From positions 50,052,166 through 50,116,165 of the forward strand of contig OX439044.1 in NCBI GenBank assembly GCA_949317995.1: 64,000 bases of DNA. The letters are read 5' to 3'. Origin of the DNA: Acholoe squamosa. Its lineage: Eukaryota; Annelida; Polychaeta; Phyllodocida; Polynoidae. The notes under the pieces are model-generated. The model worked only from the letters and a program-made list of their open reading frames with translations, ran no database searches and was not told the DNA's origin. Each line of letters begins with the position of its first letter. Position 1 is the first letter of the stretch. Both the position numbers and the translations under genes were made by a program. This document shows, piece after piece, positions 2 through 38,232 of this stretch.

Positions 2-243
2 CATGTGATCACCACCATTGCTATTCCTGGTGATCTTGCGCTATAGCGATGTCGTGTTCCATCTAGCGACATGTGTGAGCCACTTCACACAGGTTGACGA
101 GGAGTCACGGCAATTTGCTGGGCCCAGCAAATTGTTGTGAGTCCTCGTCAACCTGTGTGAAGTGGCTCACACATGTCGCTAGATGGAACACGACGTCGTT
201 ATAGCACAAGATCACCAGGAATAGCAATTGCTATGCCACATGA
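2..243. repeat. Near-perfect palindrome with ~120-bp arms
   Basis: The left arm reads inward to a centre at about 120-132 (CTGGGCCCAG). The right arm is its reverse complement with only a few mismatches and essentially no spacer. The outer ends diverge around positions 10-20 and 225-235. A partial copy of the inner arm (a CAATTTGCTGGG core) recurs near 330-345. It carries no coding capacity. It is most simply a MITE or foldback remnant of unknown family; an assembly hairpin artefact is possible but less likely because the arms differ at several positions. Confidence 0.85.
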
Positions 244-17008: not shown

Positions 17009-18246
17009 ATGTTAGAGTCTGATGTATTGGTGCCTGGTTTTAATATAGTACATGAGGTAGATCCTCCTGAGCCCCCCGTTCCTATCATTTTGGGTGAAAA
17101 TAATAAAAATGATGTTAATGTGTCTTGTGTGGATGATAAGAATCTTTTTATACCCATAGTGGCCCAGTACAGGGCGAGGTTGAACCACTGTTTACGGTGG
17201 AGTGTTTTAATAGACCCAGCATCAGGGTTTATGATAGTTGTGTCAATGGTATTTGCAGTTGTGAGCATTTTATTTATGGTCGAAAAGCTCAAATTTTACC
17301 TTGCAGACTAGCTAGTTTTCTGAGACAGTCAGATATTGTTAGTATTAACCAGATAGATTCAGATTTTCTATGGTGTGGTTTTACTGAGGGGTTCAAAATA
17401 GTTGACCCATGTTGTGATACAGCATATGACTGTAAAAATTATAAATCTATTGTAGAAGGTAAATTTTATGGCGAAATGTGTGATATTATCAAGGACAAGC
17501 TGTCCCAGGGCTTGGTCACGAATACAGCCTATAAACCTAAGTGTATTCACTCTCTAGGTGGTGTAGAAAAGTCTAATGGTAAATTAAGACCTATCATGGA
17601 TTGTAGCATGCCAGCAGATATCTCTATTAACAATTATATGGAAACTACATCAAAAAGTTTCTCTTATAACTCTATAAATACGGTAACATGTCAGTTGGAT
17701 AAGAATGACTATATGAGCGTGGTTGATTTAAAATCTGCCTATAGAAGTATCAATGTATATGGTCCACATATAGGTTACCAGGGTTTCAGATGGGATTTCA
17801 GTAATGGAGAAGAATCTTTTGAGAGCAACTGCTTGACCTTTGGTCTGAAATGTGCCCCGTATATCTTCAATAGATTATCTGATTTTTTAACTGTGGTAGC
17901 TAAGTTCTATGGTGTTGATAGGATAGTTAATTATTTGGACGATCTTATTGTCATTGCTAAAACTGAGGAGGAGTGTTTACGTAAGAGGAATATCCTTATT
18001 GAATGTATGGAGTACATGGGTTTCATTGTCTCGATGGAAAAGGTAACTGAACCTAGCCAGATATGTGTATTCCTCGGTATAACTTTTGATTCCACTAGTA
18101 TGGAGCTGTCTTTACCTCAGAAGAAATTAGATAAAATGAGTCTGGCCCTGGATGAATGTTTAGAGAGGAAGTTTTGTATCAAAAAAAATCCTCCAAAAAA
18201 TTGGTGGCTTAATGTCTTTCTGTTCACAAGTAGTATGTGGTGGTAG
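17009..18246 (+). pseudogene. Reverse transcriptase of the YR retroelement
   Basis: A long frame (17197-18246) contains VVDLKSAYRS at ~17720 (motif A) and LTFGLKCAPYIFNRL at ~17835 (motif B). It also contains the catalytic NYLDDLIVIA at ~17930-17960 (motif C) and FLGITF at ~18070. The N-terminal part is in an overlapping frame (17009-17311), so a frameshift sits near 17200-17300. The 3' end runs out of frame before the RNase H. Catalytic aspartates are present, but the gene is split. Confidence 0.85.
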
Positions 18247-18249
18247 GAC

Positions 18250-18603
18250 TTACCGGCATTGATATAGACCCAATGCCGGGTCTTTGTGGCCATTTTACCC
18301 TTGCTCCTAGTTTGGATAATCTCAAGATTCATCATAGAAATATTAATGTATATGAGCTCTACCTGGTAATGGTGGGTTTGAAGTGATGGTTAAAGAAATT
18401 TAGTAATACTAGAGTCCACTGTATCACTGACAACATGCAGGTGTTGGCCATGTTAAATACTGGTAGATCCAAGAATAAATTGTGCATGGGGTGGTTACGT
18501 GAGTTATGTTTTATCCATAATATTGAAATATATTCTACATATATTAGATCAGAGGATAATATCTTAGCTGACCATTTGTCTAGACTAAATTATAGAGGTG
18601 TCC
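18250..18603 (+). pseudogene. RNase H domain of the YR retroelement
   Basis: After a break at 18246 the reading continues with an NVYELYLVMVGLK block, a stop at ~18384, then ITDNMQVLAML (~18425-18460) and ILADHLSRL (~18560-18590). These are the usual E, D and late-D regions of a retroelement RNase H. The in-frame TGA makes it non-functional. Confidence 0.7.
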
Positions 18604-18627
18604 CAAGGAAATGTAAAAATGTTTTGA

Positions 18628-19557
18628 GTGAATATAACATGTGTTGTTATGATTGCAGACCTCAAGAAGTTGGAGAGAAAAAGGAAAAAATTCTTGTATA
18701 GGGTTGTAGCTGAGGCCACTCGTAAGACTCGTAGGCAGCAGTTTACTAGGTACAAAAAAATTTGTAAAAAATTTAATTTTACACCTCTTCCTTGTTCTCC
18801 TTCTCAAGCTTCTTTATATTGTCTGTACCTATCTGATTTTGTGAAACATATTTCAGTCAGGAATTATTTGTCTGCTGTGTGGTATTACCAGAAATTAATA
18901 GGTTATACTGATTATAGTGGTAATTTTGTGGTAAAGAAAACCCTTGATGGTATAGAGAGGATGTGTAAGGGGTCTGGTAGTACAACCTATCCTCTGAGTC
19001 CTGGTAATATGGTTCAAATTAAATCTAGACTTAATTTGGACACTATAGAGGATATGGTATTTTGGTCTGCCATACTGTTATGTTACTGAGGTGTGTTCAG
19101 GATAGAACATGTAGTACATTCACCTCATAACTTCTTAAAGAAGAATGTTAGGGTTTCTTCTGATTGTATAGAGATTAAAGTTATTTCGTCTAAAACTGAC
19201 CAATTTGGCAAATCTTCTTATGTGGTGTATCTTAAAAGAGATGATAGTTCAGATTTGTGTCCAGCTAGATATATTAAGAAATGTGTAAAAGCCTGTAAGC
19301 ATAGCAGGTTTCTTTTTTTCATCCAGTCTAGACCGTTGAATTATAACTATGTGAATAGAAAGTTAAAATCTATTGCCCTTCAGTGTAGTTTGTCTAGTAG
19401 GATTTCAACTCACTCTCTTAGCATGGTGGTGCAACCTTATTGAAGGATGCAGGCCTAAGTGTTCAGGATATTATGAGGCGAGCCAATTGGTAATCTAATT
19501 TTATTTTTAAATATTTACATGAGTCTAAGGACAGCTTGCTAGCTTTAGATGTAATGA
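18628..19557 (+). pseudogene. Tyrosine recombinase of the YR retroelement
   Basis: The N-terminal SAM-like part is 18628-19089, ending in a stop (TGA 19087). The catalytic part is 19093-19443 with an FRI Arg box at ~19095. A frameshift at ~19423 disrupts the H-x-x-R box. The downstream frame restores HGGATLLKDAGLSVQDIM. A TAA after ANW (~19490) then precedes the KYLHES segment that holds the catalytic Tyr (~19512). At least three lesions are visible. This enzyme would replace the DDE integrase by inserting a circular DNA intermediate. Confidence 0.85.
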
Positions 19558-20210: not shown

Positions 20211-20214
20211 CATG
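20211..20214. repeat. 4-bp target duplication (CATG), left
   Basis: CATG immediately precedes the 5' LTR. The matching CATG is at 32657-32660, immediately after the 3' LTR. Four to six bp is normal for Ty3/Gypsy integrases. Confidence 0.8.
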
Positions 20215-20354
20215 TGTGGTGGTCCCGCGTCATCTTCGAGGTACCTTCGTGGTCCTCGTGGGCGACGTCGAGAGCACCTCTATTACCCGACGCCTGGGGG
20301 CGCTGGAGTCCAGCGCCACGTCACCACTTGGTCACGTGGCCCTCGACTCCGGTG

Positions 20355-20393
20355 TATATAAGGCCGTTGTACGGCCTTCCTCAGGGTCAGTCC
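20355..20393 (+). promoter_or_regulatory. LTR core promoter: TATA box plus initiator
   Basis: TATATAA at 20355-20361 is followed 26 nt later by TCAGTCC (20387-20393), a full match to the metazoan initiator YYANWYY. That puts the transcription start near A20389. Between them AAGGCCGT/ACGGCCTT (20360-20378) forms a perfect palindrome. The same arrangement is repeated in the 3' LTR (+11974). Confidence 0.75.
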
Positions 20394-20423
20394 AGCCCCG
20401 ACTGACCATTGTGAGCAATGGTC
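20385..20423 (+). ncRNA. R-region hairpins at the 5' end of the genomic RNA
   Basis: Two mutually exclusive perfect stems. The first is GGTCAGTC with GACTGACC (20385-20407). The second is GACCATTG with CAATGGTC (20404-20423), whose loop is TGAG. They share GACC (20404-20407), so only one can form fully. A third stem, CCTCTGTGC/GCACAGAGG, follows at ~20455-20476. The TGAG loop matches the core of the loops in the leader of the extra ORF. Confidence 0.6.
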
Positions 20424-20597
20424 GGCGGCTGCCCGGCTACCATATTCTAATACTCCTCTGTGCTCCTGCACAGAGGGGGTTCATGTGGAATATTAACTCT
20501 AGGCACTAGAAGGCCTAGTGTCGAACCTGCAATAGAGTTCAAACTCTGCCACCTGTAACTGTGATCGAGAACGGCTGATGCCTATGTGTTATTAGAC

Positions 20598-20603
20598 AAT
20601 AAA
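20598..20603 (+). terminator. Polyadenylation signal AATAAA in the LTR
   Basis: AATAAA ~210 nt downstream of the inferred start. The functional copy for transcripts of the element would be the 3' LTR one at 32572-32577. Confidence 0.7.
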
Positions 20604-20683
20604 GTTTTAACTGGAACCTGAATAGTTGTTCTTCGTTGTTTATCGAAAGATTCGATATAACATCGAGGGGTAGAACACTACAC

Positions 20684-20701
20684 TGGTGCCGTGACCAGTT
20701 G
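20684..20701 (+). promoter_or_regulatory. Primer binding site
   Basis: TGGTGCCGTGACCAGTTG begins one base after the LTR. TGG at the start pairs with a tRNA 3' CCA end. I cannot name the tRNA with confidence. Confidence 0.8.
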
Positions 20702-20742
20702 TTAACTTTAGTCCGCATAGGTACTGCGAGCTTAAGTTCGAC

Positions 20743-23511
20743 ATGCAGGGTCACTTGGATGAAGATGATGACCCCAATCATCAACATCAAGTGACTGCAG
20801 GCCCTTTAGTGGATAGGAATGATCCACTAATTGGTGGTGGTTTGAACCACTCGCTGATATTAGGTCCATCGTCTGACCCGTTGGGCCTGTATCAAAGGAG
20901 CCGGCTACTCAATTGGCGAGTATCGACTCAACTCTCTCCGGCGGCTGAGAACTTCTTGAGGACACAGAGTTTGTCCTATGTAGAAAAATCAGCCTCGCCC
21001 GTGGGAACTCCAATGGGCCTTGGCAGTTGGTCCTTCGAGGGTCCCTCGCCCGTGTCGATACAAGGAAGTATTGACAGTGGCAGGGGACTCAAGGAGGAGT
21101 TGCTACAAGAGCAGCAACGCCAACTGCGCCAGGGTCGCCAACAGTTGGATGCTCTCGCGAGTAACACCATGAAAGCTCAGGAGAAGAGTACAGAAATAGA
21201 GCTGAAGTTGGAACAGCTTAGGCAGCAGGCGTTGGAGGCTTCGAACAAGACTCAGATCGCAAATAGAGAGCTTAGTGATCTTCAAGAGAAGGTCAAGCAG
21301 CTCTCTAGCGAAAAGGAGTCCTTGCTTGCAACGAAGTCAGAGATCGAGCGTAGTCGGTTGACAGCAATGGATTGTCAATCGCTAAAAGCAAAGATCGATC
21401 GCCTTGCTACAAGCCGCCGAGAATGTGTCGAGAGAGCTCGAAACGATTTTCGGGATGCCCAGCACGAGCAGACGTCCCTTAAACATAAGTTGAAACTACA
21501 AGAAGTAGAAAAGACTATGTTGGAGGAACAACTGCAAGAGTTGTGGCATAAGTTGAACCAACAATCAGCCGAGCATACTGAAGAGGTAGCTGAGCACCTA
21601 ACGGCTTATGAAAAGCAGGTGAAAGAGCTACGTCAGGAACGGGAATCGTTACTCTGTCAGATGCAAGCTGACGAGGATGCTCGAGCCAGGGACGAGGCAG
21701 AAATGCGTCGTCGCTGTGAGGAACGAATCGAACACGCAAACAAAATGGCGGAATATCAGGTCTTAATGGAACAAAAAGCGAGGCATGAGGCCGAGCTTAA
21801 TTCCTTGAAGTCTGAATCCCTAGTAGCCCAGTCACTGAAAGATCAGAAGGATTCGGACACTTTGGGAGCCATACGTGGTGAAATCGATGAGCTCCGACGA
21901 GAGATATTGTCTCGCAGAAAGGCTGATGAAGCCAGGGTGAATAAAGAAGTTCGTAATGAACTCGCACTCGAAGAACGTCTGAAGGAGCAGACGGAATCGA
22001 AATTGCGTACCGCTAGACTTCGAGATAAGCAACAAAGTAGTGAATGCAGCACTACTAGAGTTGCTACTCAAGGGGATCTAGTCGAAAACCCTGACTACAG
22101 AGAGTGGCTTGACCATGCCATGAAGGAGGCCAAGCAACTCTTTGCCATCAGCGAGCAACGAGATCTCTCGAAACCCGAACATGCCCGCCTGGAATTCCTA
22201 GTATCGGAATTAAGACAGGCGGAACGTTCAAAACAGCAAGCGGAGATAGATAGAATGGTGGGAGCAATCGACGACATCTCGAAAGTGGATTCGAGATCGC
22301 GCCGGACCCAACCAGTTCCTTCAATGCCGCGCACCGATGGTCTAAGTGAAGTGATCGGGCAGTTCTCGACCCCTATCACGTCCCAACAACATGTTGATCC
22401 GCCCAAATATAGGGATATCAGGTTCGAAGCTTCACGCCTGAGTGACGCCGAGTCTGGTAACCCCTGGGGGATGAATCACAGTCGTGCAGACACGACTATG
22501 AGAAACATGGGGATGGACCATCAAATACCTAGAAGAGGCACAACATTCGCCCTTGATCAGGTCAGGAGATCAAGCAGAATGTTTGAAAATACCTCGATCG
22601 GGCATGAACCAGCCCGAACTAGGTCAGTCGAGTGCCCTCCATTTACTTGGAAGGACGATTGGCTCCGTTGGTACCACAGATTCAATCACGTCCGTCGAGT
22701 AAATGTATGGACCTCGAGTATGGCATTAGCTCAACTCCTCATGTTACTCCAGAATGGCCCTGCAGCTGATACTGTGTGGCTATGGGAGGAGCATGGAGAT
22801 GGGACTTTGGAAGGACTGGTCGACATGGTAACGGAAGCCATGACTTCTAGCCTTCAAGACCCCATTGTTACAATGGAGAAGAGACGCCAAGGCAAGAACG
22901 AAAGCATTAGGGCCTATGGCTTTGCTTTGAGACGTCTTGCCGGCGATGCCTATCCAGGTGTGGACTTCTCGGTTGAATGGCTCATAACCAAAGTCAACCA
23001 GTTGTTCATAGGAGGATTGTATGACGTTGATTTACAACAAGACGTTCTTCGGGAGTGGCGTACTTACATGTCCCTAAAGGATCTCATGGACTTGGCAGAC
23101 GAGTTGTTGCGGAAAAGACAACTCCTGCCGAAGTTGGTGAATCCTACCTCGACAAATGCATTGTCGGCGTTGGCCGACGCCGCTTTGGTTGAGGAAGGAC
23201 AGGGTGAAGTCTCCTCATACTCGAAGCCCGGGGCGGGGAGTAAGACTAAGAAAGGTCAGAAATCCGCGAGTAAATCGAAAACACCAAACAAGGCCTCCAA
23301 ACCCAAGGTACAGGAGCAGACCTTCTCGCTGAGTCAATTGAAGAATTTACTCAGGGTTATCGAGGGGGGGGATGTCCCTGGTACTAGCTCGGAGAAGCCG
23401 AGTACCCCTCCGTCCGACGCCAAGTGTTGGAACTGCAAGAAGCAGGGGCATTTCGCACGAACTTGCCCCGAGCCGATTAAAGGACTACCACCTGACGCGA
23501 CGGAAAACTGA
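20743..23511 (+). CDS. gag: Gag polyprotein, 922 aa, coiled coil plus capsid plus zinc knuckle
   Basis: Opens at the first ATG after the PBS (20743), leaving only a ~60-nt leader past the LTR, and ends at TGA 23509. Residues ~1-110 are acidic then Ser/Pro/Gly-rich. Residues ~116-425 are a very long Gln/Glu/Arg/Leu heptad-rich coiled coil, unusual for Gypsy Gags (typically 300-500 aa in total). Residues ~630-790 form a helical capsid-like domain (W-rich start, then an RRQGKNESI-x-AYGFALRRLA block typical of retrotransposon Gag). A Lys/Ser-rich linker follows. A single CCHC knuckle, C-x2-C-x4-H-x4-C, lies at residues 895-908. No stop or frameshift, so the ORF is intact. The coiled coil probably drives particle assembly or binds a host partner (inference). 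Confidence 0.92.
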   Translation: MQGHLDEDDDPNHQHQVTAGPLVDRNDPLIGGGLNHSLILGPSSDPLGLYQRSRLLNWRVSTQLSPAAENFLRTQSLSYVEKSASPVGTPMGLGSWSFEGPSPVSIQGSIDSGRGLKEELLQEQQRQLRQGRQQLDALASNTMKAQEKSTEIELKLEQLRQQALEASNKTQIANRELSDLQEKVKQLSSEKESLLATKSEIERSRLTAMDCQSLKAKIDRLATSRRECVERARNDFRDAQHEQTSLKHKLKLQEVEKTMLEEQLQELWHKLNQQSAEHTEEVAEHLTAYEKQVKELRQERESLLCQMQADEDARARDEAEMRRRCEERIEHANKMAEYQVLMEQKARHEAELNSLKSESLVAQSLKDQKDSDTLGAIRGEIDELRREILSRRKADEARVNKEVRNELALEERLKEQTESKLRTARLRDKQQSSECSTTRVATQGDLVENPDYREWLDHAMKEAKQLFAISEQRDLSKPEHARLEFLVSELRQAERSKQQAEIDRMVGAIDDISKVDSRSRRTQPVPSMPRTDGLSEVIGQFSTPITSQQHVDPPKYRDIRFEASRLSDAESGNPWGMNHSRADTTMRNMGMDHQIPRRGTTFALDQVRRSSRMFENTSIGHEPARTRSVECPPFTWKDDWLRWYHRFNHVRRVNVWTSSMALAQLLMLLQNGPAADTVWLWEEHGDGTLEGLVDMVTEAMTSSLQDPIVTMEKRRQGKNESIRAYGFALRRLAGDAYPGVDFSVEWLITKVNQLFIGGLYDVDLQQDVLREWRTYMSLKDLMDLADELLRKRQLLPKLVNPTSTNALSALADAALVEEGQGEVSSYSKPGAGSKTKKGQKSASKSKTPNKASKPKVQEQTFSLSQLKNLLRVIEGGDVPGTSSEKPSTPPSDAKCWNCKKQGHFARTCPEPIKGLPPDATEN
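23496..23511 (+). promoter_or_regulatory. Gag-Pol overlap, candidate -1 frameshift window
   Basis: The pol frame is -1 relative to gag and is open only from 23496, after a TGA at 23493. A ribosome must therefore shift within 16 nt. The window contains GGAAAAC directly before the gag stop. This is close to, but not, a canonical X-XXY-YYZ slippery heptamer. The alternative is internal initiation; the first ~70 pol codons contain no strong ATG. Confidence 0.45.
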
Positions 23512-26500
23512 GGCGGGCGGCTCGACGTGGCAATCGAGCTGCCCGACCATCGAAAAGCCAAGGTATCAGCACCTCTGGCACTCCTGATCAGACGACAGTA
23601 GATTCGAGGGAACTAGGTAAGGTCCCGGTAGGGCCGTCCCAGCCCTTTACCACAGCGGCACCGGTTGATCACCGGTCGGGTTCCGAAGATGTCGGTGTAG
23701 AAAAAGCCTCAGTGGCCAAGGAACAGGGCGCTGGCAGCCCGAACTCCGAGGTCGAGGGTTCGACTGGATCGAAAGTGAAAGTCGACGCCGGGAGAGAAGC
23801 CCTGATGCGGCAGCTGGCCAGAGTCTGCGCAACAGAGCTTCCCTCAGATGATCCCTGTCTCTCTTTTCTGAAGAGGAGGGGGATCGATCTGAGTACTGAC
23901 GTAGGGTTGAGAATGCTAGCAGGAACCGCCCCCTTGTCGGGGAAACGATGGTACCTGTCTGCAGAGATTCGAGGGCGTTCTCTGGACTTCCTGATAGATA
24001 CTGGTGCCAGCCACACCATTGTCTCTCGAGAACTCGCGAAAACGTTAGTGGTGCCGTCAGATAATCTCTACGAGGGAATAACGGCGTGCACTGCGTCTGG
24101 AGCCGAAATGCGGACCTATGGTCGATTGGTTCTACCTCTTAAGGTCGCATCGACCCACTATGTGTTTAGCCCAATAGTGGCCGATGTGGCTGACGATGGC
24201 ATTCTGGGGCTCGACTTCGCGGCATTATACGGTATGATCCTGAACCCAAGAACGGGTCAATTGGTCATGACCGAGCCGGTAGAAGAGCACCATCAGTGTA
24301 AACTGAAGAGAGTGTCATCGATAGCCTCAGTAGCACAGACCACTAGGATACCTGCTAGACATCGGTGTGATGTCTTGGTAAAATCCGAAGGTCTGGAAAG
24401 AGACCGACAGGGCATAGTCGAACCCGACCTGAACACTCTGAGATGTTTCGGGTTGGTTGGTGAGGCTGCCCTTGTCAGCAATGTTCGTCGAACAGTGTTT
24501 CCCGTCTGTAATCCACTGAATCGAGACATTGTCCTGGAGAAAGGCCAGGTGGTCGGTACTATACAGTATGCTGACAGAAACGGTGAACTCTCGTCACCGG
24601 AGGTAGGATCCGTGATGATGCGTCTCGAGCAAGAAGCTGCAGACATCGAAACGGCAGAAATCGCGAGCACCCACACGGGGGAGCTCCCTACCTGGCTGTT
24701 AGACATGTATGGCGACACCCACCTGACCCAGCCAGAGGAAAGACTGAAGCTGTCCGCCTTACTACGTAAGCATGTGGATGTCTTTAAATCCCCAGATGAG
24801 CCGTTAGGGCGCACCGATCGATGTCTGCATAACATCGACACGGGTGACGCACAACCTATCCGAGTCCCTTATAGAAGGATTCCGCTCAGCAAGAAGGCTG
24901 CGGCGGATGAACAACTTAAGGAGATGTTGGATACGGGGGTGGTTAGGCCAAGTACTAGTCCCTGGTCCAGTCCCGTCCAGATGGTGACGAAGAAGGATGG
25001 GACCATGAGATTCTGCGTCGATTATCGATGTCTGAATGGAGTGACTAAGAAAAATGCTTACCCCCTCCCGCGCATCGACGAATCCTTAGATGCCCTAGGA
25101 GGAAACAAGTGGTTTAGTTGTCTCGATCTCCAATCTGGATATTGGCAGATCGGGATGAATCCCAACGACGTCGAGAAAACCGCTTTTTCCTACCAGAGGG
25201 GGCTCTACGAGTTCGATCGTATGGCGTTTGGTTTGTGTAACGCCCCCGCCACATTCGAGCGAATGATGGAGGAGATGTTGAGAGGTTTGCTAGGTAAAAG
25301 TTGCCTGGTTTACCTCGATGATATCATCGTCTTCGGCAAAACGACGGATGAAGCAATGGCGAATCTGGCAGAAGTCTTCAACAGGATTCGGGCGTGGGGA
25401 CTGAAGTTGAAACCTAAAAAATGTCAACTCTTTAGGACTTCAGTCGAGTACCTGGGCCGAATCGTGTCTGAACAGGGTATAGAAGCCAACCCGGGGAAAA
25501 TTAGCGATGTAATGACTTGGGCTAGGCCCACTACAGTGAAGGAAATCCGATCCTTCATTGGTTTTTGTTCCTACTACCGAGAGTTCATCCCGGGGTTTGC
25601 AGAACTCGTCAGTCCTTTGCAGGACTTAGTGATCCAAAAACCTAAAGGTAGTAGAGGTCGTTACGAGGCATTCGCGTGGACGGAGAAAGCCGAACATGCT
25701 TTTGTCGAGTTAAAACGAAGTTTCAGGGAGACACCTGTTCTTCGATTCCCCACACCCGACGGTCGTTTTATCTTGGACACTGATGCTAGCAACACAGCGA
25801 TTGGGGCTGTTCTATCCCAGGTGCAGGATGGAATGGAGGTCCCGATCTCATTTGCCAGCAACACTCTAAGTAAAACACAACGAAACTACTGCACTACCAA
25901 AAGGGAACTGTTGGCAGTTGTCGTGTACACCAGGAAGTTTAGACACTACCTTTATGGTGGTAACTTCACTATCCGCACTGATCATTCGTCTTTGAAATGG
26001 CTCCTAAATTTCAAAGAGGCTGAGGGAATGATGGGTAGGTGGCTGGCCCACCTTTCGGAGTTCGGTCTCGAAAACTCTAAGATCGAACATCGAAGTGGGG
26101 CCAAGCATCTAAACGCCGATGGCCTTAGTCGTATCCCTGTGCGGCTATGCCAGAGGTCGGATTGCACAGACTGCGGCAGTCATAATGCTGTTTTGGCAGC
26201 TGTAAGTGGTTTAGTAGACAGCCGGGTGGGTGTTGCATTTTGGTCTCTCGATGAACTCATTGATGCTCAGAAAGCGGACGCTGACATCAAACGAGTTGCT
26301 GAATGGCTAGTTAAGGGGGCTAAACCCACTAGGCCTGATGTATCGATCGAGAGCGCCGAGGTACGGAAATTAGTAGGGCAATGGCCTCTACTAACCTTCC
26401 GTGAAGGCTTGTTGTGTCGCTGGAAAGTCGAGGCGGGTCGAGCTAGGCGCACGATTCAAGTAGTTGTACCACGCCAACTGAGGGGTGAGGTACTCTCCTT

Positions 26501-26633
26501 TTGCCACGGACACCGAACAGCGGCACATTTTGGTCGTAAACGAACGCTCGAAAAGGTGAAAAGGAGATATTACTGGCCCGGTTCGACACTGTCCTACCTG
26601 TTGCCTGGTAAAGCCCGGCGAGGGCATGGGTAA
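23496..26633 (+). CDS. pol: Pol part 1: protease, reverse transcriptase, RNase H, N-terminal edge of integrase
   Basis: Open in one frame. The aspartic protease active site DTGA is at 23997-24008, with an ILGLDF flap-end block at ~24205. RT runs ~24850-25520 and contains FCVDYRCLN, DLQSGYWQI (motif A), FGLCNAPATFERMM (motif B) and the catalytic YLDD at 25311-25322. An FLGRIVS-type thumb follows (the sequence reads YLGRIVSEQG). RNase H (~25765-26130) has the DTDAS, E, D and D regions with TDHSSLKWL. After a linker comes the His half of the integrase zinc module (~26500-26520) and a YYWPG block (26568-26582). The frame then falls into garbage and stops at 26631. Catalytic residues of all three enzymes look intact. 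Translation depends on frameshift from gag. Confidence 0.9.
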   Translation, partial: RDGKLRRAARRGNRAARPSKSQGISTSGTPDQTTVDSRELGKVPVGPSQPFTTAAPVDHRSGSEDVGVEKASVAKEQGAGSPNSEVEGSTGSKVKVDAGREALMRQLARVCATELPSDDPCLSFLKRRGIDLSTDVGLRMLAGTAPLSGKRWYLSAEIRGRSLDFLIDTGASHTIVSRELAKTLVVPSDNLYEGITACTASGAEMRTYGRLVLPLKVASTHYVFSPIVADVADDGILGLDFAALYGMILNPRTGQLVMTEPVEEHHQCKLKRVSSIASVAQTTRIPARHRCDVLVKSEGLERDRQGIVEPDLNTLRCFGLVGEAALVSNVRRTVFPVCNPLNRDIVLEKGQVVGTIQYADRNGELSSPEVGSVMMRLEQEAADIETAEIASTHTGELPTWLLDMYGDTHLTQPEERLKLSALLRKHVDVFKSPDEPLGRTDRCLHNIDTGDAQPIRVPYRRIPLSKKAAADEQLKEMLDTGVVRPSTSPWSSPVQMVTKKDGTMRFCVDYRCLNGVTKKNAYPLPRIDESLDALGGNKWFSCLDLQSGYWQIGMNPNDVEKTAFSYQRGLYEFDRMAFGLCNAPATFERMMEEMLRGLLGKSCLVYLDDIIVFGKTTDEAMANLAEVFNRIRAWGLKLKPKKCQLFRTSVEYLGRIVSEQGIEANPGKISDVMTWARPTTVKEIRSFIGFCSYYREFIPGFAELVSPLQDLVIQKPKGSRGRYEAFAWTEKAEHAFVELKRSFRETPVLRFPTPDGRFILDTDASNTAIGAVLSQVQDGMEVPISFASNTLSKTQRNYCTTKRELLAVVVYTRKFRHYLYGGNFTIRTDHSSLKWLLNFKEAEGMMGRWLAHLSEFGLENSKIEHRSGAKHLNADGLSRIPVRLCQRSDCTDCGSHNAVLAAVSGLVDSRVGVAFWSLDELIDAQKADADIKRVAEWLVKGAKPTRPDVSIESAEVRKLVGQWPLLTFREGLLCRWKVEAGRARRTIQVVVPRQLRGEVLSFCHGHRTAAHFGRKRTLEKVKRRYYWPGSTLSYLLPGKARRGHG

Positions 26634-28182
26634 GTCTCCTCTGCACCAAGAGTTGTTCGGGGTGAGATTCGGGAGGATAGCTATGGATATCATCTCGGGA
26701 TTTGCACCCACGCCAAACAAGAATACTTGCATGTTAGTAATCCAAGATTACTTCACCAAGTATGTACGCGCTATTCCCCTACCAAATCACACGGCAGAGA
26801 CCTGTGCAGAGGCCTTCGTGGACGAATGGGTTTTGACCTTTGGAGTCCCGTTGCTTCTGCATTCCGACCAAGGTCGAGAATTCGAATCTCGACTCTTCTC
26901 TGAGATGTGTGAATATTTAACGATTGTAAAACAGAGAACCAATCCATACAGACCACAGAGTGATGGTCAGGTGGAAAGGTTCAATAGAACGTTGATTCAG
27001 AGTCTGACTATGTTGGTAGACAAACATATGGACGACTGGGATGAACAGGCTAAATATGTGGTGTCCGCATATAACAGCTCTGAGCACAGTTCTACTGGAT
27101 GCAGTCCAAATATGATGGTATTCGGGGAAGAAATTCTCATGCCAGCGGATGTGATTTTCGGCTCAATCGAGAACCCACTCGAAGTCCCTTGTTCCGTCAC
27201 CTTCGTGGAACAACTTCGTGACCGATTGAGGGAGAGTTATAGCATGGTAAGGGAAAACTTAGGTAAATCTGCGGAACGCCAGAAGGTCGGGTATGACTAT
27301 GGGCTAAAGCAGAGAAGATACTCAGTTGGTGAACAGGTGGTGAGGTACCACACCCCCCAGGCAGCTATGAAGCTTGCCCCCAACTGGGATGGGCCGTTCG
27401 TTGTAGATTCTGTCCTCTCTGAGTCGACATTATTACTTCGATCATCCCGCGGACGGTTGCAAAAGAGCAATGTTGATAGAGTGCGCCGGTGGTTGGGCGT
27501 AGAACTATCACAAACTGTCGAGTTGTTGCAACCACAACTTGATGATGATTCACCTTCTCGTAGGGCTACGAAAAGGGCTAAGTCTGTTTCTGGACAGGTC
27601 GAAATAGAGGTCGAAAGGTCGCGGCCGGAAGTCCAGTCTAAAGAACAAACTAAGCAGGGTCATCGAAAACGACAGCAAAAAGCTCGAAAACTGAGCGAGG
27701 TGGAGGTGTTGGATGCCAGTAAACCATCAAAGCGGCGCCGTGGTCGACCGGCCCGTCGAGATAAGTCGAAAACATCTAAACAGCCTTTGAAGGGATGTCG
27801 GAAGCCCGACCCCCCCTCGAAGGTGCGAACGACTGAACAAACTTCACATCGAAACGTTTCGATTGAAGTGAAAGATCAGTCACTCCAGTCCGGACCTATG
27901 ACTCGAGCGAGGCTTAAGCGCCAAGGCTCATCAAAGGAACGGTCAGCGAGTGTCGAGGATAAAAGGAAACCCAGAGCAAACACTCTGGCTCCTGCATCCA
28001 CACCGTCACAAGTGATGGGAGGCAGACGCCGACGGAAACGGGTTAATAGCCCGGTCGGCCCGGCCACATCAAAGGACGGCGGGCTAGGAGGGGGTGATAG
28101 TAACCCGCCCCGAGGCTCAACACTCGTTCCTGTAGTAAAGGTTAAAATCAGGAAAAGCCCTAGATTAAACCCTACTCAGTAA
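26560..28182 (+). pseudogene. Pol part 2: integrase core, GPY/F-like module and basic AT-hook tail, out of frame with part 1
   Basis: The frame is +1 relative to part 1, open from 26560, first ATG 26626. It begins with the Cys half of the zinc module (CPTC, codons at 26590 and 26599). The DDE core is intact: D at 26686, D at 26866, E at 26974, with 35 residues between the last two. A WDGPF module is at ~27385-27400. The last ~220 residues are a basic, disordered tail with a GRP AT-hook core in a run of Arg/Lys (27731-27765) and further Arg/Lys clusters. In related elements the two halves of the zinc module are separated by about ten residues after WPG; here only about three remain. A deletion of about 23 nt (2 mod 3) would explain both the shortening and the shift. 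This copy probably cannot make a normal integrase. Confidence 0.8.
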
Positions 28183-28660
28183 TCGATGTTTCGCACAATA
28201 CCAAGCAGCAGCTTTACTAACCTGTGTTTTTAATGAGACTTTAAAATAACGGGTGCCGTTCTTGAGTAAATCTGTCTGTGGACGTGAAGCCGACGGTGAA
28301 TAAAAAATTACACAACGAGAAGTCGTACGATTGCCTCTTAGTTTGAGACAAACTGATACTGGAAACATGGAGATTTGGAGCCTCTGATTTTATTGACTGT
28401 GAGGACGGGTTCCCAGCATAGGCTGGTGGATACTGCCCGAAGGGTAGATCCATATTGGAACCATTTTTTTAATCCCGGTAGTCTGATGAAGGAGGGGGTG
28501 CCCAGATTAATCCATGTTAATAGTGTTGGAACCCATAGACCGCATAGGAAATAACGGCATATGCAAACATTGCGACTGGAGAAGCAGAGCGTGACGGTGA
28601 GGGGAGAGTGAGTCGTTCTATTTTTTGAGCAATACCTTATTTGGTCATGGCGTGATGCGC
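28183..28660 (+). other. Post-pol spacer of the LTR element
   Basis: No coding frame. AATAAA at 28299-28304 could end a gag-pol-only transcript. Otherwise it is the upstream part of a probable internal promoter region. Confidence 0.5.
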
Positions 28661-28666
28661 GGTGGA

Positions 28667-28767
28667 CCAATAGGGTTCGCCCTCCTCGGTCACGTAGTCC
28701 CTTCCTCCAATCAGAGACGTGCGCCACAGGGATAAAAGGCCGCGTCGCCCACCACGGAGGTCACATC
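28667..28767 (+). promoter_or_regulatory. Candidate internal RNA polymerase II promoter for the extra ORF
   Basis: Two CCAAT boxes (28667-28671 and 28707-28711) lie upstream of GATAAAAGG (28731, TATA-like ATAAAAG 28732-28738). TCACATC at 28761-28767 is a full YYANWYY initiator 23 nt after the TATA-like box, giving a start near A28763. GGTCACGT (28689) also occurs 25 nt upstream of the LTR TATA box (20330), and AAGGCCG follows the TATA box in both. The repeated grammar suggests the internal promoter and LTR promoter share regulators or ancestry. Confidence 0.6.
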
Positions 28768-29076
28768 TGCGCCCTTCTCGTGAGAGTCGGACGCAGATAA
28801 GCTGGACTAAGCCTAGCTTATTCCAGCTGGTACGCCCCGTCTGGGGACTTCCTACCTGAGTGTAGGAGGTCTCCCCTGCCTAGTGTCGAGGGACACGACC
28901 TGTGTGAGCGCAGGTTCGTGTTCACTCGAGACTCCAGTCTTCGGTCCCTCGAGCCGCCTGAGTGCGGTTCGAGGTACATCGAAGACACCTTCGAGGCTTC
29001 GACCCGCCAGAGTGCGGATCGATAAACCTCGAAGATCCTCTTCGACGTCTCGTCCCGTCTGAGAACGGTTCGAGAC
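28765..29076 (+). ncRNA. Structured leader: serial hairpins with CTGAGT-type loops
   Basis: Read as RNA from the inferred start, consecutive stems form. They are: ATCTGCG/CGCAGAT (28765-28798); AGCTGGA+TAAGC with GCTTA+TCCAGCT (28800-28828); CCCC/GGGG (28835-28846); a 9-bp stem with loop CTGAGT (28847-28870); a long stem with TGAG at its tip (28883-28932); an 11-bp stem with one G-U and loop CTGAGT (28947-28974); an outer CTTCGAGG/CCTCGAAG plus inner stem with loop CAGAGT (28989-29034); and a 12-position stem with loop CTGAGA (29047-29076). Stem sequences differ while the loops stay nearly the same, which argues for selection on loop and structure. Some alternative pairings exist (for example 29030-29044). 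Confidence 0.7.
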
Positions 29077-29122
29077 CCGGAGTCTTCTCTCCCTGGTGGA
29101 ACCCGGCAGTTCAGGAAGAACC

Positions 29123-31594
29123 ATGGGGTCCTCGTCCGACGAGCAGTCAGGGTACAGCTCTTCGGCGAGCCACAAGTCGCAGAAGAAGAAGAAGAAGAAG
29201 AAGAAGTCCAAGAGGACCAGACCCGAGCAAGAGCTCGAGTCTACCTCGGCTAAAAGTGCAGCCCTTCTGAAGCAGATCGAGGATGCACAGAAAGCCTTGG
29301 CTGAGTCCCAGGAGCGGGAGAAGGAGCTCCGCCGGAAGGCGAAGGAGGCAGCTAAGCAGCAGAAGCGCGACTTGAAGGTCGCCATTGACTGGTATGTCTC
29401 GATGATCGAGAATGTTACGAATGCCTCAGACTCGTCGGGGGTGTCGCTGCCCGAGCGACAGCGGATTGGGTTCGCATGGCGCATCTTCAATCCAGGGCAG
29501 CAGTGTGCTTTCGAGAACTGCACACGTAAGGGGTTTCCCCCTCGCGTATACGCGACTGACGGCAGGTATGCTCGACACTTGGTTGAAGAGCATCGAGCCA
29601 TCCGTCCACAGTTCGGTTGTGTTAAGGTGGAAAAGACCATTCCATGTTATCAGGACCCTGATGACCCGACCTCTCCTCCTTTCGTGACCTCACGAAGGGG
29701 CTTGATGGCGCGTCATCTCAAGTCGTACAAGCAGCCCCATAAGTACAACGCCGAGGGCGCTATCCAGCTAGTGGAGACACTGGTTGGAAAGTGCGAACGG
29801 AATGAGAAGACAGGCGCGCCGACTAGACACTGGATGCGGATGGCCCCCGCACCCCCGTCTACGAAGCGCCTGTATATCAGACCGGAGCTGATGCCCGCTT
29901 TCTACGGTGCCTACCCCGAGTTCAGGGTAGAGCAACGGAAGAAGCGGGAGGCCAGTCGTCCTCGGGACCCAGGACCTACAGCCTCTACGAGTGGGAACAA
30001 GAGGCCCCACTCTACAGAAGCTGGAAAGTCTGCCGGTTCGACTGAACCTAAGAAGCCTAAGCCGCAGGCTGCTCCCTCGAAGCCCGAAAAGGCATCGAAA
30101 GCCGCCCCGGCCCCGGCTCCTAAAAAGTCGAAGACTGCTTCGACCGGTTCAGCCAAACCAAGCACCAGTGGTGCTAAAACTGGAGGCAAGACGGTGGAAA
30201 CCCGGAGTGGTCGTGATCGACAACCCAAGGTGACCACCAACTCGTCTCCTGTCAAGCCCCCTACAGCGGCAGAGGGCAGCACCCCAGCTGCCACGCCGCG
30301 TGTCCACGTAGGAAGCGCGACATTGACCTCAGCAGCAGGAGCTAGCTTCTCCAACGTCGTGACAGGCGCCGACACCCCGACAGCAACCTTGCGTTGGGAA
30401 TTGGCACAGCCTGCATACGGCGATGGCGTCGAATGTGGGGTCCCGAAGACGTTCGTGGAACGTTGTAAGGGACTTCTACAGATGACAGGCAGCCCCGCTA
30501 TCGACAAGTTCGGTGAGGCATTCCGTGAGGAAGCGAGTGCCTACTTGTTCGGCCTGTTTGATAGAACAAACATGGCCATCCGTAACGAGCTCCTTCCGGC
30601 TCTTAGGAATGAGGCGCGCCAGACCGTTCAGATGGAGATGGACTCTCGTCTGACCGACGTCCGAACGCGTCTCAATAACTTTGAGGCACAGGCCCAATAT
30701 GATATTACCAAGAGGGACAGTATCATAGAAGGCTGGGAGGAAATCGACCGCAAATTCTTTAGAGTCTTCGGGGTCCAACTCTCGGAATGGATGAGGGACA
30801 AACACCATGGCGTCCGAACCCTGAAGCCCGTTCGAACCGAGCCCTCTCGCGAAGCGCAGAGGTACCTCGTCGAGGGTGGAGAGATTCCTGACGTCAGGAC
30901 GCTGGCGGCTCAGACGAATCCTTTGAGAGAATTGTCTCCAAAGATTGACAGTCTGAGCTCGGCTATGACGATGTTGGGCCGAGAGCAGGTGGTGCAGGAC
31001 AAGCCTGACACCCCGGGTAGGTCTCTCGGTGCCTCCGTCTACCCGCCAGCAGCCCCGTCTTCCTCCTCGGTTCCCTTGATAACCCTCTCGGGAACCACCG
31101 AGCCTACGCCGCCACCGGTCCAGAGAATGGTGTCACCGAGGATCCATCCGGATCTTCAGGGCATCACTCCCCTGGCCCCGGCGAACGTAGCCGTCTGTCC
31201 GGACCTGTCGGCTTCCGCCCAAGCAGTAGAACCTGCCGAGGTGGAACAGTCGATGGATATAGACGGGGACGTCGATGTCGTCGATCATTCTCCAAAGCCT
31301 CCCCCTGACCAGGGAGACAAGGACGACCGTGAAGGTCAGGAGAGCGACGACGACGACGGAAGCGACTCAGCAGACTCGACCGTTCTCCACTCAGATGCTG
31401 AGGGGGACTCCCGGGATGCACCCGAGACCTCTAACGAGGCTTGGAGTACGACAATGGACCGCGAGGCCCCATTGCCGGAGTCGCCGACGTTTTCGGGCCA
31501 GCTAGCCGCCAGCGCTCCACATGGAGAGGAGCGCACTGACGGAGAGCAGGCCGAAATCGACGCCGCTACAGGGTCCATCTCGGAGGATCAGTAG
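29123..31594 (+). CDS. Extra retrotransposon ORF, 823 aa, with C2H2-like Cys/His clusters, unknown function
   Basis: ATG 29123 sits in a strong context (ACCATGG). An in-frame GTG at 29096 is not needed. Residues ~18-30 are a Lys run from an AAG repeat, and ~35-85 a charged coiled coil. Two zinc-finger-like clusters follow: C128-x4-C133-x18-H152-x4-H157 and C166-x8-C175-x22-H198-x7-H206. Both have aromatic/Leu spacing before the first His but longer loops than classical C2H2 fingers. Residues ~275-400 are Lys/Pro/Ala-rich and disordered, ~437-560 predicted helical, and ~700-823 Pro/Ser then strongly acidic (an Asp run). No signal peptide or membrane segment. No stops across 824 codons, in a young element, implies a maintained gene. 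It could bind the leader hairpins, DNA or Gag, but nothing in the sequence proves a role. Confidence 0.85.
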   Translation: MGSSSDEQSGYSSSASHKSQKKKKKKKKSKRTRPEQELESTSAKSAALLKQIEDAQKALAESQEREKELRRKAKEAAKQQKRDLKVAIDWYVSMIENVTNASDSSGVSLPERQRIGFAWRIFNPGQQCAFENCTRKGFPPRVYATDGRYARHLVEEHRAIRPQFGCVKVEKTIPCYQDPDDPTSPPFVTSRRGLMARHLKSYKQPHKYNAEGAIQLVETLVGKCERNEKTGAPTRHWMRMAPAPPSTKRLYIRPELMPAFYGAYPEFRVEQRKKREASRPRDPGPTASTSGNKRPHSTEAGKSAGSTEPKKPKPQAAPSKPEKASKAAPAPAPKKSKTASTGSAKPSTSGAKTGGKTVETRSGRDRQPKVTTNSSPVKPPTAAEGSTPAATPRVHVGSATLTSAAGASFSNVVTGADTPTATLRWELAQPAYGDGVECGVPKTFVERCKGLLQMTGSPAIDKFGEAFREEASAYLFGLFDRTNMAIRNELLPALRNEARQTVQMEMDSRLTDVRTRLNNFEAQAQYDITKRDSIIEGWEEIDRKFFRVFGVQLSEWMRDKHHGVRTLKPVRTEPSREAQRYLVEGGEIPDVRTLAAQTNPLRELSPKIDSLSSAMTMLGREQVVQDKPDTPGRSLGASVYPPAAPSSSSVPLITLSGTTEPTPPPVQRMVSPRIHPDLQGITPLAPANVAVCPDLSASAQAVEPAEVEQSMDIDGDVDVVDHSPKPPPDQGDKDDREGQESDDDDGSDSADSTVLHSDAEGDSRDAPETSNEAWSTTMDREAPLPESPTFSGQLAASAPHGEERTDGEQAEIDAATGSISEDQ

Positions 31595-32129
31595 TATGAA
31601 ACTACTGCTCCTCCTCGTCAGTCTGGATCGCTGACATCGAACAGAGTCTCGATGTCAGCACGGAACCCCCGGGAACTCGTTCCCGGACGACGGTGTACCC
31701 TCCACGAGTGGGGGTACCTTTCCTGTCCCCGGACCTCCCTGCGAAGCTGTGTGGATCTGACGCCACCTTGGTCTTAGGGCCCGGTGGTGCCACACATCCT
31801 CGGCCTCACGGTCGAAGGACCATCATAGTAGTATGGTACGCTATCGATGGGCTTCCTACGCTGGAAGGAGCTTCTCAACGAGACAGGGAGGAAACGACAC
31901 GACCCCGGTTGCCATACCTGGTCGTGCCTCCCTCGGATCGACCAGGAGCAGGTCGTGAAGCAGTGTTTCGACACTGGTCTCCTACGTTGGATGGAGCAAC
32001 GCCTTATAATTTAACTGTGATAATAATTTTTTTCTACAGTACAGTAGAAACTATATTTCTATATATTCCTCTACTGTTTCTGTCGACTGTGTCGACGGAT
32101 CCAGTAGTTCATATTATTATCTAATTGTT
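31595..32129 (+). ncRNA. Structured 3' region after the extra ORF
   Basis: Strong stems: GCTGACATCGA with TCGATGTCAGC (31630-31659, 11 bp, loop ACAGAGTC); CCGGGAA/TTCCCGG (31669-31686); GTACCC/GGGTAC (31695-31717); CACGACC/GGTCGTG or CTGGTCG/CGACCAG (31898-31945, alternatives); and CAGTGT-TTCG-ACACTG (31961-31976), a TTCG tetraloop hairpin. The first loop again contains CAGAGT. Not coding, despite a 143-aa chance frame. Confidence 0.55.
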
Positions 32130-32188
32130 TAGACTGATCCGGGATCTCTGAATTTTCAGAGACCTCGTTTCAGTCTAGTGGGGGGTGG
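32130..32188 (+). promoter_or_regulatory. Hairpin and polypurine tract before the 3' LTR
   Basis: TAGACTGA (32130) pairs with TCAGTCTA (32170-32177), enclosing TCTCTGA/TCAGAGA. GTGGGGGGTGG (32178-32188) follows directly and abuts the LTR. The G-rich run is the likely plus-strand primer, though T residues interrupt it. Confidence 0.65.
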
Positions 32189-32656
32189 TGTGGTGGTCCC
32201 GCGTCATCTTCGAGGTACCTTCGTGGTCCTCGTGGGCGACGTCGAGAGCACCTCTATTACCCGACGCCTGGGGGCGCTGGAGTCCAGCGCCACGTCACCA
32301 CTTGGTCACGTGGCCCTCGACTCCGGTGTATATAAGGCCGTTGTACGGCCTTCCTCAGGGTCAGTCCAGCCCCGACTGACCATTGTGAGCAATGGTCGGC
32401 GGCTGCCCGGCTACCATATTCTAATACTCCTCTGTGCTCCTGCACAGAGGGGGTTCATGTGGAATATTAACTCTAGGCACTAGAAGGCCTAGTGTCGAAC
32501 CTGCAATAGAGTTCAAACTCTGCCACCTGTAACTGTGATCGAGAACGGCTGATGCCTATGTGTTATTAGACAATAAAGTTTTAACTGGAACCTGAATAGT
32601 TGTTCTTCGTTGTTTATCGAAAGATTCGATATAACATCGAGGGGTAGAACACTACA
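32189..32656 (+). repeat. 3' LTR (468 bp)
   Basis: Same length and, by eye, same sequence as 20215-20682. AATAAA at 32572-32577. Followed by the CATG duplication. Confidence 0.95.
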
Positions 32657-32660
32657 CATG

Positions 32661-36118: not shown

Positions 36119-38232
36119 CCCCCCCCCCCTCTACCCCCCCTTCAAAGTAGGCTCCCTTTTGTGTTCAGTATTGAGTCCTATGTAGGATAAGGGGGTTTAT
36201 AGAGATGTCAGGAATCTTTATCAGAGTGATATCAAATGGAAACAAGGGGCCACCTATACCAGAAAATCCTGCTGAATCCAAAATTTGTGGTCTTGATTCT
36301 CAAAATTTGGCCAGAGGTACCTAAAAATGAGGTTTGATGATGAGAATATTTTAAAAATGTACAAAAGTTATATTGAAAATGATTGGAACTTTTTATAGAT
36401 GCAACATGCTAATCAAAGTCAGTACCTCAATCTACATATCCCAATGTTTGCCTATCCGAACCTGACAAGTACTCTGCTTGCGTATGGCTCTACCTCTCCC
36501 ACATACTGCCTATCCCTTAGTGTGCCTATCACTCATACTACCTATCCCTTGAAACATCTAGAGTTTAATTAGGTTTTCTCTCAAATGGCTTAAAGGATTA
36601 AAGTTTACCCTTCACCTTTGTACCTAATTTTCTCTGTACATTTTTACCATTAGTCTACCTATCCTCAATCTGCCTATCATTCACTTTACCTATCCCTCAT
36701 AGTGACTATCCCCCAAATATGCACATCCCTCATATTTGACTGGCACATCTGTGATATTACCTAGCACCAATGTATCTTTTGAATATGCTCACCTTACAAG
36801 GTACCCTCTGTACCTATCTCTTAAACTGTTTATTACCTATCCTCCTTGATACCCATCCTCTTCAATACCTATCCCTCAAGCTCACTTTATAGCTTTCCTA
36901 CCTATCACAGCTTGATCAGCTGGGATAGCTCACATCCAACCTTCATTTTGATCTCTTAGTCAACCTATCCCCTAAGGAACAAATTTAACAGTCTACCTCA
37001 CACATACATCTACCTATTGCTCATGCTATATATCATTGAGGTTACCTATCCTTCAGGCTGCCTATCCTGCATTTTAGAAAAGCATGATAATTCAATGGCC
37101 TGAGGGATATGTAAGGTAAACATGAGTGATATGCAGACTTGAGGATAGGTACAATGAGCGATAGGTATATTTCACAAGGCATAGACTATAAGAGCTACTA
37201 TAAAGGTAGAAAGAATAGCATACAAGGTGAGAGATACATAGATAGCTGGTTAGGTAGGCAGAGGGCTATATACCATGAAGGGTAGGCAGCCTGAAGGATA
37301 GGTAACCTCAAGGATATATAGCATGAGTGATCAGTAGATGTATGCTTGAGGTAGACTGTTGGATTTGTTCTTTAGGGGATAGGTTGACTAAGAGATCATA
37401 ACAAAGGTTGGATGTGAGCTATCCCAGCTGATCAAGCTGTGATAGGCAGGAAAGCTATAAAGTGAGCTTGAGGGATAGGTATTGAAGAGGATGGGTAGCA
37501 AGGAGGATAGGTAATAAACAGTTTAAGAGATAGGTACAGAGGGTACCTTGTAGGGTGAGCATATTCAAAAGATACATTGGTGCTAGGTAATATCACAGAT
37601 GTGCCAGTCAAATATGAGGGATGTGCAGATTTGGGGGATAGTCACCATGAGGGATAGGTAAAGTGAATGATAGGCAGATTGAGGATAAGTAGACTAATGG
37701 TAAGAATGTACAGAGAAAATTAGGTACAAAGGTGAGGGGTAAACTTTAATCCTTTAAGCCATGTGAGGGAAAACATAATTAAACTCTAGATGTTTCAGGG
37801 GATAGGTAGTATGAGTGATAGGCACACTAAGGGATAGGCAGTATGTGGGAGAGGTAGAGCCATACGCAAGCAGAGTACTTGTCAGGTTCGGATAGGCAAA
37901 CATTGGGATATGTAGATTGAGGTACTGACTTTGATTAGCATGTTGCATCTATAAAAAGTTCCAATCATTTTCAATATAACTTTTGTACATTTTTAAAATA
38001 TTCTCATCATCAAACCTCATTTTTAGGTACCTCTGGCCAAATTTTGAGAATCAAGACCACAAATTTTGGATTCAGCAGGATTTTCTGGTATAGGTGGCCC
38101 CTTGTTTCCATTTGATATCACTCTGATAAAGATTCCTGACATCTCTATAAACCCCCTTATCCTACATAGGACTCAATACTGAACACAAAAGGGAGCCTAC
38201 TTTGAAGGGGGGGGTAGAGGGGGGTGGCTTGC
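36119..38232. mobile_element. Foldback element, ~950-bp inverted arms
   Basis: The left arm (36119-37070) and right arm (37278-38232) are near-identical reverse complements across their whole length. A ~207-bp spacer (37071-37277) separates them. Both ends carry a C/G-run with CTCTACCCC. The arms are packed with the word CTATCCCTCA (or GAGGGATAG), usually extended to TACCTATCCCTCA. It has no coding capacity and an unknown mobilising enzyme. A single-arm relative is at 1360-2350. Confidence 0.85.

Follow-up and report, generated by a model that had tools for sequence, protein, structure and literature searches.

An extra non-envelope gene behind pol, preceded by a hairpin array, in a Ty3/gypsy retrotransposon of the annelid Acholoe squamosa

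Accessory genes other than env are found in long terminal repeat (LTR) retrotransposons, and their functions are poorly understood. We analyzed a stretch of 64,000 nucleotides (nt) from the polychaete Acholoe squamosa (GCA_949317995.1, contig OX439044.1, positions 50,052,166 to 50,116,165 of the forward strand; hereafter the window), in which a Ty3/gypsy (Metaviridae) LTR retrotransposon at 20215-32656 carries an additional open reading frame (ORF) behind pol. Accessory ORFs in sense orientation other than env are an established category; the protein family encoded here and the hairpin array in front of it appear to be new within the literature and family libraries searched. A first-pass annotation of the region 28660..32129 had described a young element with identical LTRs and a complete extra gene with two Cys/His clusters, a coiled coil, a helical domain, an acidic tail, its own promoter, a folded leader and a folded 3' region, and had proposed an RNA/DNA-binding regulator or a counter-defence factor. 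Its observations were confirmed in part, and its interpretation is partly supported.

Several described systems can be set beside this locus. HIV-1 Rev/RRE provides the idea of an RNA with several landing sites for a protein that the element itself encodes; the hairpins in the window differ in being separate, regularly spaced and of a single loop type, and no homology between the two systems is known. In foamy viruses the regulator Tas is encoded beside env, while no env was seen in the window element. From envelope-bearing (errantivirus-type) elements the window element differs in that its third ORF has neither a transmembrane span nor a Pfam env match. The likeness to foamy virus Tas, drawn by description, consists of a putative internal promoter from which a regulator gene could be driven and of a promoter motif common to this region and the LTR (passages of PMC4929722). 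Bdelloid rotifer LTR retrotransposons also carry, in animals, a sense non-env ORF3 behind pol, but these ORF3s are GDSL esterases, DEDDy exonucleases or membrane proteins (passages of PMC5408684). Grande with its gene23, and other plant LTR retrotransposons with extra ORFs, resemble the window element by description in that an extra gene lies in the long stretch separating pol from the 3' LTR; the Grande gene, described as encoding a nuclear protein and having its own promoter, is antisense, whereas the gene in the window is sense (passages of PMC7264820). The closest in action, by description, would be CERV of the Caenorhabditis elegans Ty3/gypsy element Cer1, a nuclear accessory protein required for export of the genomic RNA. 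It is portrayed as accessory, lineage-specific, possibly zinc-binding, self-associating and without a retroviral homologue, and it is in these terms that we set it beside the window protein (passages of PMC10309623, where Rev is described as well). However, CERV is made from a spliced mRNA, has an N-terminus in common with gag and combines a putative C4 finger with a G-protein-like domain (same passages), whereas the window ORF lies behind pol with its own ATG and encodes two C2H2-like fingers and an acidic tail; membership in the CERV type is not claimed.

The extra gene and its parts are located as follows.
29123..31594, plus strand: accessory ORF, 823 amino acids (aa), in sense orientation, ATG in the context ACCATGG
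29357..29977, plus strand: conserved zinc-finger domain, residues 79-285
30395..30922, plus strand: conserved helical domain, residues 425-600, predicted to form a single helix of about 90 residues
31223..31591, plus strand: acidic C-terminal tail, residues 701-823

In the favored reading, the retrotransposon carries the extra ORF as a genuine accessory gene. The longest open frame in 28183-32187 comprised 843 codons, whereas 500 first-order Markov sequences gave 173 on average and 386 at most; starting from an upstream GTG at 29096, the product would have 832 aa. A chance or antisense frame is ruled out by this length and by the seven protein relatives described below; the complete ORF of the first-pass annotation is confirmed. 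The ORF has its own ATG and no similarity to the Gag of the same element, and an origin as a duplicate of gag was unsupported (BLASTP best E 0.93, hhalign probability 0.1%). No membrane span was found in the protein (highest 19-residue Kyte-Doolittle mean 0.96), and its N-terminus is hydrophilic by inspection, in agreement with the non-envelope character that had been proposed.

Relatives were sought in a set of 5.8 billion sequences. The full window protein as query, with scoring limited to the 7996 candidates sharing most words, retrieved P0001; its finger region retrieved P0001-P0003, and the finger region of P0002 in turn retrieved P0004-P0007. All seven are unnamed ENA proteins of 541-1024 aa, with 22-35% identity to the window protein overall and 26-46% in the finger domain. 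Collections of viral contigs (queried with the ORF or with the first part of pol) and of genome contigs yielded no relative with genomic context. Against Pfam the window protein had no match at E 1, and the best value over the eight members (E 0.13) was at chance level; NCBIfam and PHROGs, applied to three of the eight (the window protein, P0001 and P0005), gave best E values of 0.28 and 0.061, too weak to use. Two hits among PDB sequences (E 0.29 and 3.4) were taken as chance, and Foldseek returned nothing at E 0.001 in PDB or BFVD, from a shallow alignment, so that a new fold is not implied. A description of the protein was not found in the literature searched, including passages of PMC8220671, PMC5035971 and PMC11963269, which is weak evidence of absence.

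In the eight-row alignment of the window protein and its relatives 37 positions are invariant, and these include all eight candidate zinc ligands, C128 C133 H152 H157 and C166 C175 H198 H206 (8/8 sequences), which bears out the two Cys/His clusters. The spacings in the window protein are C-x4-C-x18-H-x4-H and C-x8-C-x22-H-x7-H, both longer than in the classical C2H2 finger, and the zf-C2H2 Pfam profile matched none of the eight members at E 10; the domain has a weak structural likeness to DNA-binding finger arrays. A basic run of at least four residues precedes residue 75 in 6/8 proteins, lies further in in P0007 and is lacking in P0001. The claim of a coiled coil and a helical domain held for the helix: residues 458-549 are predicted as a single long helix, but heptad periodicity was weak (the window value was reached by 25/2000 shuffles, and values were not significant in the five relatives tested), and a coiled coil is not established. 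The helical domain is missing from P0003 and P0006, in which similarity is lost after the finger domain and which may be frame-shifted copies. The tail is as acidic as had been described, with 37 D/E against 6 K/R; four of the eight proteins have a clear one (the window protein, P0001, P0004 and P0005), that of P0007 is weak, and P0002, P0003 and P0006 lack it. Judging from these sequences, the accessory ORF encodes a real, conserved non-envelope protein that plausibly binds nucleic acid.

The composition of the segment would also suit a recently captured host gene or a nested insertion, that is, a passenger without a role in the element. The GC content of leader (0.60) and ORF (0.59) is higher than that of gag and pol (0.50-0.52), and codon usage is deviant: its correlation with gag+pol (r 0.73) was no better than that of the best antisense frame (r 0.79), so that codon usage failed to discriminate the accessory frame. 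On the other side, no long repeats bound the segment, and the frame loss of P0003 and P0006 after the finger domain may resemble decayed copies of a multicopy family; we consider a passenger quite improbable. The counter-defence factor, which would shield the element from host silencing, is to our mind just as improbable. A strongly diverged protein with low-complexity linkers in a mobile element makes it plausible, which is not evidence, and there was no significant family match in Pfam, NCBIfam or PHROGs (PADLOC was not searched). The following hairpins were found in the element.
28840..29080, plus strand: five hairpins, U1-U5, whose stems carry compensatory changes
31630..31659, plus strand: 11-bp hairpin just 3' of the accessory stop, loop holding CAGAGT (the loop of U4)
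20402..20425, plus strand: hairpin in the presumed R region of the 5' LTR, loop (G)TGAG(C), equal to that of U2 (GTGAGC)

The leader claimed to be folded proved to be the most structured of eight segments tested (28761-29122, z -4.5 versus first-order Markov sequences; the others ranged from -1.3 to -3.2), and its strong folding is explained by the regular array of five hairpins. The loops start at 28856, 28904, 28958, 29008 and 29059 (spacings 48, 54, 50, and 51) and read, in order, CTGAGT, GTGAGC, CTGAGT, CAGAGT and CTGAGA, with the common core [T/A]GAG. When the units, cut by us in register with the loop, were aligned without gaps, stem pairing was present in 43/50 cells and the inner four pairs in 20/20, and 8/10 stem pairs had changes on both sides. 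Covariation was 0.61 compared to 0.29 ± 0.08 in shuffles (0/500), and all slid alignments stayed at or below 0.24; the number of further pair types was ordinary, being reached by 64/500 shuffles. A constant loop on changing but matched stems has the look of an RNA recognition site, whereas a DNA site should have its stem letters conserved. The unit U5 (29041-29080) holds GGTTCGAGACC, which fits the tRNA B-box consensus; the covarying stem explains GGTTCGAGACC as well, and Rfam had no match anywhere in the window.

To assess the loop sequence, we used the motif C[TA]GAG[TA], picked after the leader had been inspected. Four leader hairpins carry it, against 0.025 expected and a maximum of two in 5000 Markov sequences; with a stricter stem score three remained (0/2000), a count that among 180 letter permutations, the motif included, was reached by C[TA]GAG[TA] only. 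Outside the leader the element has three further hairpins with the motif, at 20959, 26949 and 31630 (0.19 expected, 3/3000), but the same count was reached by 9/180 permutations, the motif itself included, and we regard these as suggestive only. The antisense strand of the element had none, and the rest of the window had just one, which lies on the plus strand. The folded 3' region of the first-pass annotation is not established: apart from the 11-bp hairpin at 31630, the z of this region (-2.7) is no stronger than values seen among four coding controls (-1.3 to -2.8).

The array might instead serve Gag, the constant GAG loops being nucleocapsid sites for packaging or dimerization, and the extra protein having another role, structural or in host interaction. 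Gag carries a CCHC knuckle, and a like-looped hairpin lies in the presumed R region, placed from the positions of the TATA box and AATAAA. Packaging signals, however, normally lie near the 5' end of the RNA, and the presumed start lies about 8.5 kb upstream of the array, which directly precedes the extra gene. In HIV-1 the initial nucleocapsid sites are at a labile [UUUU]:[GGAG] leader element (passages of PMC7395439), but that element is a helix and not a loop. On balance we think a Gag array improbable. The proposal that the extra protein is an RNA/DNA-binding regulator is strengthened by the hairpin array.

Upstream of the array lies a stretch with promoter-like motifs.
28688..28741, plus strand: promoter-like stretch, with GGTCACGT at 28688, CCAAT at 28707 and ATAAAAGGCC at 28732

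A second CCAAT box is present at 28667. A TATA-AAGGCC-like box occurs both in the 5' LTR (20357) and before the ORF (28732), each time with GGTCACGT upstream (20330 and 28688), and GGTCACGT followed within 10-60 bases by [AT]AAGGCC was found in the window only in the pre-ORF stretch and the two LTRs. No ATG lies between 28656 and 29122; the ATG-free leader of 362 nt had P 0.009 against mononucleotide shuffles and 0.20 against first-order shuffles. Spliced expression is conceivable: a crude splice-site scoring rated an acceptor at 28715 as fair, while the best donor in the presumed gag leader was weak (20410, 1.4 bits) and better donors lay inside gag (best 22957, 4.5 bits). A leader derived from the LTR was rejected, as the shared exact 12-mer (20513 and 28878) was not significant. 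Of the promoter that had been claimed for the gene, the motifs are thus present, while the promoter itself is putative and not established.

The shared motifs bear on our main rival explanation, a transactivator like foamy virus Tas. An internal promoter would drive a DNA-binding protein; its fingers would bind a site common to that promoter and the LTR, its acidic tail would activate both, and the hairpins would form a separate element for translation or RNA stability. The restriction of GGTCACGT and the TATA-AAGGCC-like box to the LTRs and the pre-ORF region, the combination of fingers with an acidic tail and the weak likeness of the fingers to DNA-binding arrays are all consistent with this, and in bovine foamy virus the LTR and the internal promoter are both bound by Tas (passages of PMC4929722). 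Yet the overall similarity between LTR and leader was not significant (P 0.07 or 0.34 depending on the scoring scheme), GGTCACGT may be the site of a host factor, the acidic tail is clear in just 3/7 relatives, and the covarying hairpins are left unexplained. We consider a Tas-like transactivator rather unlikely.

The promoter-like stretch and the row of hairpins together suggest a built-in control system for the element. Our own proposal, held tentatively and at somewhat less than even confidence, is that the accessory protein is a regulator translated from a short transcript of its own, and that it acts on the RNA of the element through the hairpin array. An internal promoter near 28,760 would start a short mRNA for the protein, and the latter, with its basic N-terminus, two C2H2-like fingers and acidic tail, would be a nuclear nucleic-acid-binding regulator, perhaps self-associating by its long helix. 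The five hairpins with the constant [T/A]GAG loop core would serve as a multi-site landing pad, present in both the leader of the accessory mRNA and the full-length RNA. Binding by this protein rather than by Gag may tag the RNA of the element to be exported, stabilized, packaged or translated, with possible feedback on the mRNA of the protein itself; such action is modelled on CERV in Cer1 RNA export or on Rev in HIV. A more far-reaching version, which we find doubtful, would see in these roughly 3 kb a self-contained control module with a private LTR-like promoter, a five-hairpin array and a new two-finger protein reading this array in its own mRNA and in the genomic RNA, as an independently evolved Rev/RRE-like system.

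The remaining parts of the element are the following.
20215..20682, plus strand: 5' LTR, 468 nt, TG..CA ends, CATG at 20211-20214 on the left; motifs GGTCACGT at 20330, TATAAGGCC at 20357, TCAGT at 20387 and AATAAA at 20598
20684..20698, plus strand: candidate primer binding site, TGG start, one base past the 5' LTR
20743..23511, plus strand: gag, 922 aa, one CCHC zinc knuckle (PF00098)
23712..26633, plus strand, frame 3: pol part 1 (aspartic protease, reverse transcriptase, RNase H, start of the integrase H2C2 domain)
26626..28182, plus strand, frame 1: pol part 2 (integrase core, rve, and C-terminus)
28183..28640, plus strand: non-coding spacer, GC 0.44
32178..32188, plus strand: candidate polypurine tract GTGGGGGGTGG, G-rich, touching the 3' LTR
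32189..32656, plus strand: 3' LTR, identical to the 5' LTR, followed by CATG at 32657-32660

Two TG..CA LTRs, a short target duplication, the candidate polypurine tract and the candidate primer binding site mark the element as an LTR retrotransposon, and the Pfam domain order protease, reverse transcriptase, RNase H, integrase is that of Ty3. The LTR limits (468 nt) were fixed by the TG..CA ends and the duplicated CATG (4-nt target duplication), and 470 bases are common to both copies at 100% identity. As the LTRs are identical along their full length, the insertion is recent, as the first-pass annotation had it; activity of this copy does not follow, and the active family proposed there is not supported. 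The frame of pol part 1 stays open 5' of 23712, reaching the end of gag. In a three-frame reading, the integrase frame shifts at about 26,580-26,590, within the zinc-binding domain, and the break, in 26560-26640, separates YYWPG (frame 3) from a CPTCC stretch (frame 1). Either pol is broken in this copy or there is a sequence error at this position; an intact integrase, not seen in this copy, is not required for Ty3/gypsy membership. No second copy of the element was found in the window at E 1e-3.

Elsewhere in the window, an inverted repeat at 36120-38227 has 953-nt arms (97% complementary) with 202 nt between them; related stretches (73-77%) lie within 1420-2371, and it is therefore probably a foldback element or one like a miniature inverted-repeat transposable element. 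A second reverse transcriptase ORF (RVT_1, E 1.6e-18) followed by a 153-aa ORF lies in 17197-19089, and we regard the pair as probably a degraded DIRS/Ngaro-type element; the 153-aa ORF, for which Pfam gave no support, looks like a tyrosine-recombinase fragment. A near-perfect 212-nt palindrome (94%) occupies the left end of the window (17-228). A minus-strand ORF at 54450-54857 had no significant Pfam hit and resembles a non-LTR reverse transcriptase protein in its C-terminal part.

A conserved, uncharacterized protein family and a well-supported candidate RNA target lie here on the same DNA, and they form a directly testable protein-RNA pair. If the accessory protein does bind the hairpins, retrovirus-like RNA control would have arisen independently in an ordinary retrotransposon.

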